A stretch of DNA of 44,043 nt. It comes from Candidatus Eiseniibacteriota bacterium (lineage in GTDB: Bacteria; Eisenbacteria; RBG-16-71-46). The stretch is taken from the NCBI GenBank assembly GCA_016223045.1, contig JACRPT010000044.1, positions 1 through 44,043 of the forward strand, read 5' to 3'. Below, piece by piece: positions 35,003-39,012 of this stretch. Numbering within the stretch: position 1 is the stretch's first letter; each line of letters begins with the position of its first letter. The notes below the pieces were generated by a model. That model was not told the DNA's origin. It saw only the letters and a list, made by a program, of their open reading frames with translations, and did no database searches. The position numbers were made by a program, and so were the translations under genes.

Positions 35003-36567
35003 CCTTCGCGCTCTACGGGCCGCTCGGACCGATGACGCGGATCGAGCGCGCCGGGCTGGCCGCCGCGCTGCTGCTCGCCGCGGCCCTGATGTGGCCGCTG
35101 CGCCACTACGTCACCGACGACACCTTCATCCACCTGCACTACGCCCGGCACCTGGCCACCGGCCAGGGCCTGGTCTTCAATCCCGGCGAGCGGGTCTACG
35201 GTTGCACCAGCCCGCTGTGGGTGTCGCTCATCGCCGACGGCATGGCGCTCGGCTTCGACGGGCTGCGCGTGGCGCGCGTACTCGGCTTCCTCGCCACGCT
35301 GTGGTCGGTCGTGCTGTTCCTCCAGCTCATGCGCCGCAACCTGCGCACGCCGGCGCTGCGCGCCGCGGCCACGCTGGCGTGGGCGGGCCACGCGTGGATG
35401 CTGCGCTGGTCGCTCTCCGGCATGGAGACGCCGCTGGCGGTGGCCCTCATCCTGGCCGGCTTCGTCGCGTTCACCGAGGGCAAGCAGTGGGGCGCGCGCC
35501 CGGTGCGCACCGGCGCGCTCTGGGCGCTGGCCGCGCTGACGCGGCCCGAGGCCGCGCTGCTGCTGGTGCTGTGGGGCATCTTCCTGCTGGTGGACACCGA
35601 CAGCCGACCGGGCCTGCAGCGCCTGATCTTCGGCACGCTGCCGCCGGCGCTCATCTACGGCACCTGGCTGCTGTTCGCGCGGGTCTACTTCGGCACGCTG
35701 TGGCCGCAGACCCTGCAGGCCAAGGCCGCAGGCGGCGCCGGCCTCGCGTACCACCTGTCGGGCCTGTGGCGCCAGGTGCGCATCGTGGGCGCCACCGACG
35801 GGCTGCTCGCGGGGCTGCTGGCGGTCGCGCTCCTGGCCGGCGGCCGGCGCGTATGGACCCAGCGCCCGGCGGCGCAGCGCGCGCAGCGCCTGCTGCCGTG
35901 GGTGTGGGTGATCGCGGTGCCCGCGCTCTACGTGGCGCGCGGCGTGCCGGTGCTCTCGCGCTACCTGCTGCCGCTGCTGCCGGTCCTCGGCTGGCTGGCC
36001 TGGCGCGCGGGGGAGTGCTGGAGTTCGGGATCCGGGGACACGCCGAAGCACGCGTTCCGCACGACGGTGGTGGGCGGCGCGCTCGCCGCGCTGGTGCTGG
36101 TGCAGAACCTCGCGGTCTACCGCACCGTGGTGGTGCCGCACGTGGACTCGTTCAGCGCGGCGCTCCAGCGCAGCCTGATCCCGTGGGGGCGCTGGTTCGC
36201 CGCGCACACGCCGCCCGGCACGACCATCGCCACGCCCGACATCGGCGCGATCGCCTACTACAGCCGGCGGCGGGTGCTGGACCTCGCGGGTCTGGTCACG
36301 CCGGAGATGGTCCCCTATCTCCTGCGCGAGACACCGGAGCAGGCCGTCGCGAACTTCAGCTTCGCCTCGTTCTCACGGCCCGACTACGTGGTGGACCGCG
36401 CGCCGGCGGCGGACGACCTGCGCCGCCGCAGCCGCTTCGCGGCCTGCCTCACGATCCTCGGCCATGCCTCCGTGCCGAACCTCGGGGTGTCGCGTCCGGG
36501 CCCCGCCGTCTACACCTTCTACCGCGTGGACTGGGCCGTCTTCGACTCGCTCGCGGCGCGCCCATGA
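34999..36567 (+). CDS. Polytopic GT-C-like membrane glycosyltransferase
   Basis: 522 residues and about ten membrane helices. The first periplasmic loop reads YVTDDTFIHLHYARHLATGQGLVFNPGERVYGCTSPLW. This is the DD-containing loop found in bacterial GT39/GT87-like and mycobacterial arabinosyltransferase-like proteins, which use polyprenyl-phosphate sugars. A C-terminal periplasmic domain from about 390 has ATPDIGAIAYYSRRRVLDLAGLV. Last gene of the glycan block. It is followed by a palindrome and a possible terminator before the mraZ promoter. Confidence 0.83.
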   Translation: MTFALYGPLGPMTRIERAGLAAALLLAAALMWPLRHYVTDDTFIHLHYARHLATGQGLVFNPGERVYGCTSPLWVSLIADGMALGFDGLRVARVLGFLATLWSVVLFLQLMRRNLRTPALRAAATLAWAGHAWMLRWSLSGMETPLAVALILAGFVAFTEGKQWGARPVRTGALWALAALTRPEAALLLVLWGIFLLVDTDSRPGLQRLIFGTLPPALIYGTWLLFARVYFGTLWPQTLQAKAAGGAGLAYHLSGLWRQVRIVGATDGLLAGLLAVALLAGGRRVWTQRPAAQRAQRLLPWVWVIAVPALYVARGVPVLSRYLLPLLPVLGWLAWRAGECWSSGSGDTPKHAFRTTVVGGALAALVLVQNLAVYRTVVVPHVDSFSAALQRSLIPWGRWFAAHTPPGTTIATPDIGAIAYYSRRRVLDLAGLVTPEMVPYLLRETPEQAVANFSFASFSRPDYVVDRAPAADDLRRRSRFAACLTILGHASVPNLGVSRPGPAVYTFYRVDWAVFDSLAARP

Positions 36568-36592
36568 CCATCTGAGACGCCGTGTCCCGGCG

Positions 36593-36608
36593 CTGCACGC
36601 GCGTGCAG
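36593..36608 (+). repeat. Perfect 16-bp palindrome
   Basis: CTGCACGCGCGTGCAG is identical to its reverse complement. It lies 26 bases after the last glycan gene and 44 bases before the mraZ -35 box. It could be a transcription-factor site or the stem of a weak end-of-operon hairpin; there is no T-run after it. Confidence 0.55.
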
Positions 36609-36623
36609 TGCGGAGTGCGGTGC

Positions 36624-36641
36624 GGCGCCTTCGGGAGCGCC
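36624..36641 (+). terminator. Possible terminator of the glycan operon
   Basis: GGCGC (36624-36628) pairs with GCGCC (36637-36641) around a TTCG-centred loop and is followed by ACCTTTCCCTTT. The stem is short and the T-tract interrupted, so termination may be partial, but it is the only candidate between the glycan block and mraZ. Confidence 0.4.
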
Positions 36642-36651
36642 ACCTTTCCCT

Positions 36652-36680
36652 TTGACACCCGCATCACACGCTCCTATTGT
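36652..36680 (+). promoter_or_regulatory. Sigma70-type promoter of the mraZ cluster
   Basis: TTGACA (36652-36657) and TATTGT (36675-36680) with a 17-base spacer. The start of transcription should fall near 36687, just before or within the first MraZ box. The -35 context CTTTGACACCC is identical over 11 bases to that of the riboflavin promoter. Confidence 0.78.
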
Positions 36681-36689
36681 GCGCGGGTC

Positions 36690-36729
36690 GTGGGTAGCCG
36701 TGGCAAGAAGTGGGTAGCTGGGGAAGTTC
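36690..36729 (+). promoter_or_regulatory. MraZ operator: four GTGGG-type boxes at 10-nt spacing
   Basis: GTGGGTAGCC, GTGGCAAGAA, GTGGGTAGCT and GGGGAAGTTC follow each other with exactly ten bases between box starts (36690, 36700, 36710, 36720). MraZ is known to bind TGGG-type repeats with 5-nt spacers upstream of its own gene. The boxes overlap the predicted start of transcription and the 5' leader, so binding should repress the cluster. Confidence 0.82.
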
Positions 36730-36754
36730 CGCGAGAGAGCGAGACCGGGTCCCG

Positions 36755-37207
36755 ATGGTGTCCTTCCACAACACACAGACCTGCTCGATCGACCACAAGG
36801 GCCGCCTCAGCGTGCCCGTCGCGATGCGCCGCGAAGGCCCCGGCCGCAAGACCCACGACCGCTTCTTCCTGAAGTACGGCACCGAAGGCTGCCTCCAGCT
36901 CTACTCCGTCGAGGGATGGGAGCACATGGAGGCCAAGCTGCGCAAGCTGCAGCGCAGGGGGCCGCGCGAGCGCGGATTCGTGCGTGCGTTCGGGAAGGAC
37001 GCGTACTGGGTGACGGTGGATGCGCAGGGACGCATCAGCATCTCACCGGCGCTGTCGGGCCGTGCAGGACTCGGCAAGGAAGCCCTCCTGCACGGGAACA
37101 TCGAGTACATCGAGATCTGGAATCCGGAGAAGTACAACGCGTCCATGGCGGCCATGCCGGACGAGAAGCTGTCGGAGCTGGAGCAGGAGATGCTCGGAGA
37201 GGAATGA
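36755..37207 (+). CDS. mraZ: Transcriptional regulator MraZ
   Basis: 150 residues from ATG 36755. It contains two SpoVT/AbrB-like half-domains. The first has IDHKGRLSVPVAMR with the DxxGR motif, and the second has VDAQGRISISPALS with the same motif. MraZ forms a ring-shaped oligomer that binds the box repeats upstream and controls the division and cell wall cluster. An upstream in-frame GTG at 36710 lies inside the operator and is rejected. The C-terminus (EKLSELEQEMLGEE) is acidic. The stop overlaps the STAS gene start. Confidence 0.94.
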   Translation: MVSFHNTQTCSIDHKGRLSVPVAMRREGPGRKTHDRFFLKYGTEGCLQLYSVEGWEHMEAKLRKLQRRGPRERGFVRAFGKDAYWVTVDAQGRISISPALSGRAGLGKEALLHGNIEYIEIWNPEKYNASMAAMPDEKLSELEQEMLGEE

Positions 37208-37665
37208 TCATGGCGGCCAGGCACGACACCCACGACGAGCGCATCGTGCTCGCGCTCAACCTCGACCTGAGCCGGGGCCGTCACGGCGCCTCGGCCCGCA
37301 TCGAGATCCGCGAGCGCCCCACCGGGCGCATCGCGCTGCTCGCGTTGCGCGGCTGGATGGACCGCGTGGCGGTGAGCCGCCTCGACCGCACGCTCGACGA
37401 CCTCGCGGCGCGCGGCGTCGAGCAGCTGCTGCTCGACTGCTCGCAGCTCCGGCACATCGACTACCGCATGGTGCCGGCGCTGGTGGAATCGCTGGCGCGC
37501 TTCGAGTCGCGCGCGGGCGGGTTCGTGGTGTGCGGGCTCTCGCACTACCTGCGCGACCTGTTCCGGCTCGCGGGCTGCGAGCCGCGCCTGCGCTGCTGGC
37601 CCTCGGCGGCGGAGCTGCTGGGCGCCCCGCCGCTGGTCGGGACGGGACGTGAGTGCGCGTCATGA
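37204..37665 (+). CDS. STAS-domain protein between mraZ and rsmH
   Basis: 153 residues from ATG 37204 (ATG 37210 is also possible). After a 40-residue polar N-terminus comes a STAS fold: ALLALRGWMDRVAVSRLDRTL, VEQLLLDCSQL, LARFESRAGGFVVCGL and LRDLFRLAGCEP. In anti-sigma-factor antagonists the loop after the third strand carries DSSG with the phosphorylated Ser; here it reads D86-Y-R-M, so it cannot be switched that way. Its function is unknown. It overlaps mraZ by four bases and rsmH by 17, so it is an integral member of the cluster. Confidence 0.82.
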   Translation: MIMAARHDTHDERIVLALNLDLSRGRHGASARIEIRERPTGRIALLALRGWMDRVAVSRLDRTLDDLAARGVEQLLLDCSQLRHIDYRMVPALVESLARFESRAGGFVVCGLSHYLRDLFRLAGCEPRLRCWPSAAELLGAPPLVGTGRECAS

Positions 37666-38578
37666 GCCGGTGCTGCTCGCGGAGGTGCTGTCGTTCCTGC
37701 GGAACGGTCCCGGCCTCTACCTGGACGCCACGCTCGGCGACGGCGGGCACGCGGAAGCGCTGCTCGCCGCCGAGCCCGGCGCCCGGCTGCTGGGCTGCGA
37801 CCGGGATCCGGCCGCGCTCGCGTTCGCGCGCGGGAGGCTGACGGGATTCGGCGATCGCGTGGCCGTCGCGCACGCGACATTCCGGGAAGTACCGGCCGTC
37901 CTCATCGAGGCCGGCGGAGAGAAGCTGACAGGGGCGCTGTTCGACCTCGGCCTGTCGTCGCGTCAGATCGACGACCCGTCGAGAGGGATGGGGTTCATGA
38001 CGGCCGGTCCGCTCGATCTAAGGATGGATCCCTCGCGCGGAAGGACTGCCGCGGAGCGGCTGGCCGGAGCGGGTGAGGAGGAGCTGGCCGCCGTGCTGCG
38101 CGAGCACGGCGACGTGACCGGCGCGGCGCGGCTGGCGCGCGCGCTGGCCGCGGAAGCGTCGCACGGGAGGCTGCGGACGACGGCGCAGCTCCGGGAGGCG
38201 ATCGACCGGGCGCACGGCGGGCGGGCCCATCCCAGGCGGCACGCGCAGGTGTTCCAGGCGCTGAGGATCTGGGTCAACGACGAGGCCGCGGACCTGGAGG
38301 CGGCGCTCCAGTGGCTGCCGGGCGCGCTGCGGCCCGGCGGCGTGGTCGTCACGATCGCATTCCATGGCGGGGAGGATCGGAGAATCAAGCAGGCGCTGCG
38401 CGGTGCGCGCGTGATGCGGCCGGCGCGGCGACTGCCGGAGATACCCGGGGAGCGGCCCTCCGAGGGGCCGTGGGAAGAACTGACACGGAGGGTGGTCACC
38501 CCCTCGCCAGCCGAGACGGCCAGGAATCCCCGCGCGCGCAGCGCCCGGCTTCGGGCCTTCCGGAGAAAGCAGTCATGA
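37649..38578 (+). CDS. rsmH: 16S rRNA (cytosine-1402-N4)-methyltransferase
   Basis: 309 residues. HEPVLLAEVL at the N-terminus, SAM motif LDATLGDGGHAEALL, LFDLGLSSRQIDD, the RGMGF and PLDLRMD block, QALRIWVNDEAADLE and the late AFHGGEDRRIKQAL. The family has SFHSLEDR in that last place, so this copy is slightly diverged. GTG 37649 lies within the end of the STAS gene. It methylates 16S rRNA in the decoding centre. ATGA overlap with the next gene. Confidence 0.94.
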   Translation: MSARHEPVLLAEVLSFLRNGPGLYLDATLGDGGHAEALLAAEPGARLLGCDRDPAALAFARGRLTGFGDRVAVAHATFREVPAVLIEAGGEKLTGALFDLGLSSRQIDDPSRGMGFMTAGPLDLRMDPSRGRTAAERLAGAGEEELAAVLREHGDVTGAARLARALAAEASHGRLRTTAQLREAIDRAHGGRAHPRRHAQVFQALRIWVNDEAADLEAALQWLPGALRPGGVVVTIAFHGGEDRRIKQALRGARVMRPARRLPEIPGERPSEGPWEELTRRVVTPSPAETARNPRARSARLRAFRRKQS

Positions 38579-39012
38579 ACAGGGAAGTTCGCTGGCCTCG
38601 TTCCTGGCGCGCGTCGGAGGCGCGCGCGATCCGACTCGGACCGTGGCTCATCGCCGTGGCCGTGGTCGGGATGCTCCTGGTCGAAGTGTGGCAGTGCTCG
38701 CGCGTCGCGCAGCTCAGCCTCGCGCTCGACCAGACCCGCAAGCTGGCGCAGCAGGCGCAGGCACGGCTCCAGTTCGTGCAGGCGCAGGTGGACCGCCAGA
38801 CCACCCGAACGGAACTCGCCCCGCTGGCATCCCGGCTGGAGCTGGTTCCTGTCGACGCCCAGCAGGTCGTCCAGCTGCCGTCCGAGTTCCTGGCGGACGC
38901 GCAGGACGTCCGGACCGCGGAGGAACCGCGGTCGGCGCTGGCGTGGGCGGAAAGGGCCTCGCGCGTCCTCGTGCCGGAAGCCACGGCACGCAGCCGCGCA
39001 ATCCGGGACTGA
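38575..39012 (+). CDS. ftsL: FtsL-like division protein
   Basis: 145 residues. A short basic cytoplasmic N-terminus is followed by one membrane helix (about 22-41: LGPWLIAVAVVGMLLVEVW). A coiled-coil follows to about 80 (LSLALDQTRKLAQQAQ, LQFVQAQVDRQTTRTEL), then a polar tail. Sequence identity to FtsL is too low to see by eye; the assignment rests on topology, size and the rsmH-ftsL-ftsI order. A member would bind FtsB/FtsQ and FtsI at the septum. ATGA overlap with rsmH. Confidence 0.75.
   Translation: MNREVRWPRSWRASEARAIRLGPWLIAVAVVGMLLVEVWQCSRVAQLSLALDQTRKLAQQAQARLQFVQAQVDRQTTRTELAPLASRLELVPVDAQQVVQLPSEFLADAQDVRTAEEPRSALAWAERASRVLVPEATARSRAIRD

Follow-up and report, generated by a model that had tools for sequence, protein, structure and literature searches.

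A STAS-domain protein encoded between mraZ and rsmH in Candidatus Eisenbacteria and at least four other phyla, with the regulatory serine mostly replaced by an aromatic residue

The division and cell wall (dcw) cluster of a Candidatus Eisenbacteria genome carries a STAS-domain gene between mraZ and rsmH, and comparison across genomes suggests that this gene (here, junction STAS) represents an old, so far unnamed family encoded at that position. In total, junction STAS was found in 127 genomes belonging to 39 families and at least five phyla. Its members have largely exchanged the residue that is phosphorylated in regulatory STAS proteins for Tyr or Phe. We tentatively propose, with somewhat less than even confidence, that the protein is a permanently binding STAS adaptor that has MraZ as its likeliest partner and tunes division-gene expression.

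To our knowledge, there is no settled answer on what controls MraZ or why mraZ and rsmH stay together. In E. coli, RsmH (MraW) reportedly acts as an antagonist of MraZ. In the same organism, the available text of PMC8475190 describes MraZ as binding MraZ boxes and repressing its own cluster, and reports no apparent phenotype upon MraZ loss.

Results

The window (the whole stretch of DNA that was analysed, 44,043 nt) contains the gene between mraZ and rsmH and on the same strand as both (Table 1). Counted from its first ATG (37204), the gene shares 4 nt (ATGA) with the mraZ stop, and it ends 17 nt into rsmH when the start of rsmH is taken as GTG 37649, in agreement with the preliminary description, which had the STAS gene overlapping both neighbours; starting at the alternative ATG 37210 would leave no overlap with mraZ. 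For mraZ, the start was set to ATG 36755, with the frame open from GTG 36710. Relatives of the ftsL-like gene that follows are also found 3' of rsmH in the window's family. An N-terminal extension of junction STAS (window 37240–37317, approximately residues 13–38, LNLxLSxGRHGASAR, with two predicted strands) is kept in the window's family and is mostly missing from the other aligned Eisenbacteria families.

A promoter-like site was the single hit of a consensus scan that gave a mean of 0.0 in 50 shuffles, and the MraZ-box-like repeats lie just 3' of it. The repeat pattern, which was written after the site had been read, occurs once in the window and in 0 of 100 shuffles. Pairs of the form GTGGG-N5-GTGG or TGGG-N6-TGGG precede mraZ in 51 of 68 loci, a count made without a shuffle control. 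No terminator-like site was found over 36500–38700.

Table 1. Positions of the features discussed, in window coordinates or, for the leaders, in coordinates of the locus named
Feature	Position	Strand	Basis
Sigma-70-like promoter TTGACA-17-TATTGT, upstream of mraZ	36652..36680	+	Pattern match, 10/12 bases
MraZ-box-like direct repeats GTGGG/GTGGC/GTGGG, 10-bp spacing	36690..36714	+	Pattern match
mraZ, division/cell wall cluster regulator	36755..37207	+	PF02381 5.2e-20, above cut-off; NF001476 1.2e-25, below its cut-off
Junction STAS protein, 153 aa	37204..37665	+	PF13466, PF01740, predicted fold
Codons H84-I-D86-Y87-R88-M89, replacing the DSSG phospho-switch loop	37453..37470	+	Alignment, family tally
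Y115 codon (GLSxYL)	37546..37548	+	Kept in at least 90% of the phylum's 38 aligned proteins
rsmH (mraW), 16S rRNA methyltransferase	37649..38578	+	TIGR00006 1.5e-67, above cut-off
ftsL-like gene, next in cluster	38575..39012	+	NF053549 E 2.7e-4, 20.7 bits, below cut-off 55
Candidate leader with core TCCCTGCC	L046:2926-3057		
Candidate leader with core TCCCTGCC	L049:2920-3049		
Candidate leader with core TCCCTGCC	L028:1229-1352		
Candidate leader with core TCCCTGCC	L052:955-1105		
Candidate leader with core TCCCTGCC	L042:924-1115		
Candidate leader with core TCCCTGCC	L044:940-1102		
Candidate leader with core TCCCTGCC	L051:929-1096		

Four other Candidatus Eisenbacteria metagenome-assembled genomes carry this gene at the position it has in the window. 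A search for RsmH across the phylum found the gene in 45 of 47 genomes, and wherever mraZ and rsmH could be read on one stretch, a STAS ORF lay between them (43 of 43 junctions). In G042, STAS immediately follows mraZ, and rsmH lies on a separate contig; the junctions that were not readable are those of G045 (contig end) and of G025 and G044 (no rsmH found). The preliminary description had spoken of an insertion into the mraZ–rsmH junction and had named occurrence in a single genome as grounds for dismissing it. The position was confirmed by this survey; the gene is not special to one genome, being conserved in the sampled genomes of the phylum and in at least four other phyla.

The ORF is not a chance one, judging by its sequence conservation, because dN/dS is 0.11–0.33 in five orthologue pairs and the position is the same in all 43 phylum junctions. 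Such selection, and the retention of the profile and the signature across several phyla, also make it very improbable that the ORF is a spacer or relic that merely bridges translation from mraZ to rsmH. Such a role would suit G003, in which the protein (L023:1486-1836) is cut to 117 aa and has lost the signature while its frame still overlaps both neighbours. A bridging role also sits poorly with the arrangement outside the phylum, where 74 of 83 genomes show no overlap with mraZ. In Eisenbacteria, 34 of the 43 genomes have a start codon that overlaps the end of mraZ (by 4 or 1 nt), which fits the MraZ reading proposed below, whereas the rarity of such overlap elsewhere (9 of 83) speaks against that reading.

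Four genomes of the phylum (G013, G016, G018, and G004) have a second rsmH-like gene above the TIGR00006 cut-off, at L054, L055, L056, and L057; no mraZ or STAS match accompanies these copies on stretches that reach 0.1 to 3.1 kb upstream (138 nt for L057). Where a long gap precedes rsmH, in Eisenbacteria families f6, f9, and f10, a candidate leader shares the invariant core TCCCTGCC followed by TCGG, and the core sits in a long stem in the loci folded. The four loci folded gave z-scores of −4.0, −1.6, −2.3, and −1.1. The consensus has 18 pairs, five with two-sided changes, at a covariation term of just −0.16. At E 1, Rfam gave no match inside the leader in six of the seven loci (L052 was left out of the scan), and one sub-threshold match over 11 loci, located outside the stretch of interest. 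The leader is a candidate cis-regulatory RNA of rsmH.

Beyond the phylum, we used a sample of 80 genomes (G047–G126) chosen regardless of STAS, in 78 of which rsmH was found. In 63 genomes mraZ stands in front of rsmH, and STAS lies between them in 12 of these and is missing from 51. The 12 are what the profile saw, five of them had helped to train it, and a very diverged STAS protein, for example at L194, could have been missed; one copy (G097) is shortened. Four of the 12 (G052, G071, G074, and G115) came to light in the profile search described next, and the other eight in the stretches upstream of rsmH. Gaps of 164–370 nt in this sample that lacked a STAS match by profile were read by eye. 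At two junctions with a gap of approximately 309 bases, L150 (G113) holds an ORF that is not STAS by profile and whose start looks, by eye, like a MerR-type winged helix, and L170 (G119) holds an open stretch of approximately 98 codons that is not STAS by profile.

A profile search of 385 genomes gave, among the matches listed, strong matches in other phyla, and 17 of the 41 stretches taken from those matches have STAS exactly between mraZ and rsmH. At least four more cases (G138, G176, G178, and G186) come from G127–G196, a set surveyed through its best STAS matches. Searches centred on four genomes then drew four disjoint genome sets that share solely the domain with the window. Junction STAS is present in all three genomes of G070's phylum (G070, G218, and G356), in 18 of 20 genomes of G115's phylum, in 36 of 36 readable junctions from the 40 genomes of G186's phylum, and in 9 of 30 readable junctions from the 38 genomes of G074's phylum. 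The three genomes of G070's phylum come one from each sampling round; if sampling drew a single genome per phylum in every round, as this suggests, the matches of the first round would stand for up to 17 phyla. In G441, rsmH is at a contig end, and G450 yielded neither gene. Across this non-random sample, STAS is present in 126 of the 198 genomes in which a single stretch holds both mraZ and rsmH, and to these G042 is added; the other 72 do not, which implies that MraZ does not need STAS.

The junction protein belongs to the STAS domain superfamily on the evidence of profiles and of a predicted alpha/beta fold. It scores above the Pfam cut-offs for STAS_2 (PF13466, 3.1e-11, 43.7 bits versus 29.2) and STAS (PF01740, 8.3e-10, 38.8 bits versus 22.6). 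An AlphaFold model built from a 5-sequence alignment (pLDDT 84.9) was matched by Foldseek to 1til_B (SpoIIAA) with E 6.7e-8, and VIA-align gave Z scores of 15.3 to RsbS 6jhk_B and 15.1 to SpoIIAA 1til_B. SpoIIAA, RsbS, RsbV, and TM1442 rank near the top in these comparisons. A profile search pointing to a different fold, which would have counted against the original STAS assignment, did not result. The protein stays below the NCBIfam cut-offs of TIGR00377 (35.9 versus 53.45 bits) and TIGR02886 (23.8 versus 114.75 bits). In the model, Y87 opens helix 87–103 and Y115 stands at the start of helix 114–122.

The window loop HIDYRMV aligns with MDSSGLG of PDB chain 1th8 and MDASGLG of 1tid, placing Y87 opposite the residue that is Ser in the former and Ala in the latter, which we take to be the SpoIIAA phospho-serine Ser58. 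Over 127 junction proteins, this position is Tyr in 93 and Phe in 16 (109 of 127). The remainder comprise Arg (three), Leu, Val, Asn, Gln, and Ser (two each), and His, Gly, Glu, and Cys (one each), while the shortened G097 copy has a gap there; Ser occurs only in G006 and G454. The same searches also collected 73 STAS domains from other locations, in which the residue is Ser in 72 cases and Thr in one; these domains are a subset of the STAS domains in their genomes, chosen for likeness to the junction type by profiles trained on junction proteins, a bias that works against finding the difference between Ser/Thr and Tyr/Phe. The window protein accordingly has the features by which we propose to define the junction family, namely a gene between mraZ and rsmH and a phospho-site without Ser/Thr, and through Y87 it lacks the Ser/Thr of the phospho-switched SpoIIAA/RsbV type.

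The DYRM loop is, as the alignments indicate, a signature rather than plain decay. Many junction proteins read H-x-D/N/S-Y/F-R, the phyla of G186 and G070 have F/Q-x-S/N-Y-M, and certain lineages show a looser version (Val, Gln, Asn, Arg, and others, with the Ser of G006 and G454). When 38 of the 43 Eisenbacteria proteins are aligned, G50, D78, H84, R88, and Y115 are conserved in at least 90% of rows. Three of these residues, H84, R88, and Y115, might line an anion or nucleotide pocket that gates a partner, making the protein a ligand sensor. Their conservation within the phylum fits such a pocket, yet the phyla of G186 and G070 do not retain the His and Arg, whereas they mostly do retain the position and the aromatic residue; we regard a sensor as having only a slim chance of being right.

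Loss of the regulatory Ser, as the preliminary description had read the loop, is upheld by these counts. It had further held that the protein cannot work as a phospho-switched anti-anti-sigma factor. The absence of the phospho-switch is supported, but to bar any anti-anti-sigma role would go too far: a STAS protein that cannot be phosphorylated could be a permanently active anti-anti-sigma factor that always binds an anti-sigma kinase, such that division-operon expression frees a sigma factor. With SpoIIAA, RsbV, and RsbS among its best sequence and fold neighbours, the protein has relatives suited to this role. The site itself, however, carries Tyr plus Arg or Met instead of Ser, the TIGR00377 score is under its cut-off, and the immediate neighbours are mraZ and rsmH with no kinase gene. 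Such a factor is probably disfavoured by having Tyr and Arg at the interface, and overall we consider it quite unlikely.

In a quick tree, 38 junction family representatives separated from 66 other STAS rows on one branch (SH-aLRT 91). With the motif columns removed, a free search gave six label changes, and a tree holding the junction rows together reached a higher likelihood and was not rejected (p-AU 0.985); both trees rest on little over 100 columns and have long branches. These results support, without proving, a single origin of the junction family.

Comparison of evolutionary distances leans, without being decisive, to RsmH and not MraZ as the STAS partner. Over 116 sets, mirror-tree partial correlations were 0.64 for STAS–RsmH and 0.34 for STAS–MraZ. 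RsmH stayed ahead in every variant tried: 0.50 versus 0.19 under an alternative distance measure, 0.43 versus 0.28 when the numbers of columns were equalised, and 0.34 versus 0.29 after removal of family f1. STAS might then stabilise or modulate the 16S rRNA methyltransferase, as MlaB does the ATPase MlaF. The 17-nt overlap with rsmH, which almost every member of the window's family shows, fits a partnership of this kind. So do the 14 RsmH columns that best separate genomes carrying STAS from those lacking it, 8 of which fall in 136–194 by a statistic that ignores lineage. On the other side, 124–195 nt separate STAS from rsmH in some Eisenbacteria families. Moreover, 15 of the 78 rsmH genomes in the 80-genome sample have no mraZ in the 1.2–2.2 kb upstream, and none of these 15 gave a STAS match there, although 12 of 63 with mraZ against 0 of 15 without are numbers too small to decide the matter. 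Two further genomes, G474 and G475, have no junction STAS and no match to mraZ or rsmH, and so do not discriminate between the partners. None of the loci examined showed STAS fused to MraZ or to RsmH. Weighing these observations, we judge RsmH a rather unlikely partner.

Discussion

Phosphorylation at the canonical STAS site breaks partner binding, as the accessible portion of PMC7367683 describes for SpoIIAA, RsbR, and RsbS. Because the phospho-residue is mostly fixed as a bulky aromatic, junction STAS may be a permanent, non-switchable binder, and its dose could be set by co-transcription with MraZ. It would use the classical STAS face to act on MraZ (or on RsmH). We put MraZ forward as the likeliest partner, with STAS serving as an anti-repressor or a co-repressor for the division genes, because of the gene's position and the reported MraZ–MraW antagonism; RsmH would come next. 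In the preferred MraZ reading, junction STAS would adjust how strongly MraZ shuts off its own operon. A bolder form, in which STAS is an anti-repressor of MraZ and a third, unrecognised component of the dcw head that is ancestral to several phyla, with a fixed aromatic lock replacing the phospho-switch so that division-gene expression is tied to protein dose and not to a kinase, seems to us doubtful in its entirety.

That at least five phyla conserve a third gene at the mraZ–rsmH junction offers a direct handle on the control of MraZ and on the linkage of the two genes, and it points to an overlooked partner of a division-gene regulator. The family is also a STAS lineage that has almost always lost the regulatory Ser/Thr, contrary to the broad conservation of this residue across STAS proteins, MlaB Thr52 included, that is stated in the available text of PMC7367683. 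A search of the full-text literature, judged by titles and abstract openings and with most subscription journals outside its scope, returned no publication on a STAS protein at the mraZ–rsmH junction.

E. coli and B. subtilis are not known to have a STAS gene at the mraZ–rsmH junction, and the gene settings of RsbS and MlaB differ from that of junction STAS. Relative to the standard dcw head, which has the same genes in the same order and, in E. coli, MraZ boxes in front (available text of PMC8475190), the window has an extra gene between mraZ and rsmH. SpoIIAA and RsbV (TIGR00377, TIGR02886) share the single-domain STAS fold and are among the best relatives of solved structure, yet junction STAS differs from them in its Tyr in place of the phospho-serine, its mraZ and rsmH flanks, and its sub-threshold scores for both NCBIfam models. 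RsbS, the stressosome STAS protein, gave the highest VIA-align Z (over 112 residues at 12% identity), tied with SpoIIAA chains; unlike junction STAS, it is phosphorylated on a conserved Ser/Thr according to the accessible part of PMC7367683. MlaB, the STAS subunit of the Mla lipid transporter, aligns with Z 11.1 and offers the precedent of a STAS protein whose binding partner is fixed, with no phosphorylation shown so far in the portion of PMC7367683 available. MlaB keeps Thr52 at the site and has MlaF as its partner, whereas junction STAS has Y87 and so lacks the Thr of the MlaB type.
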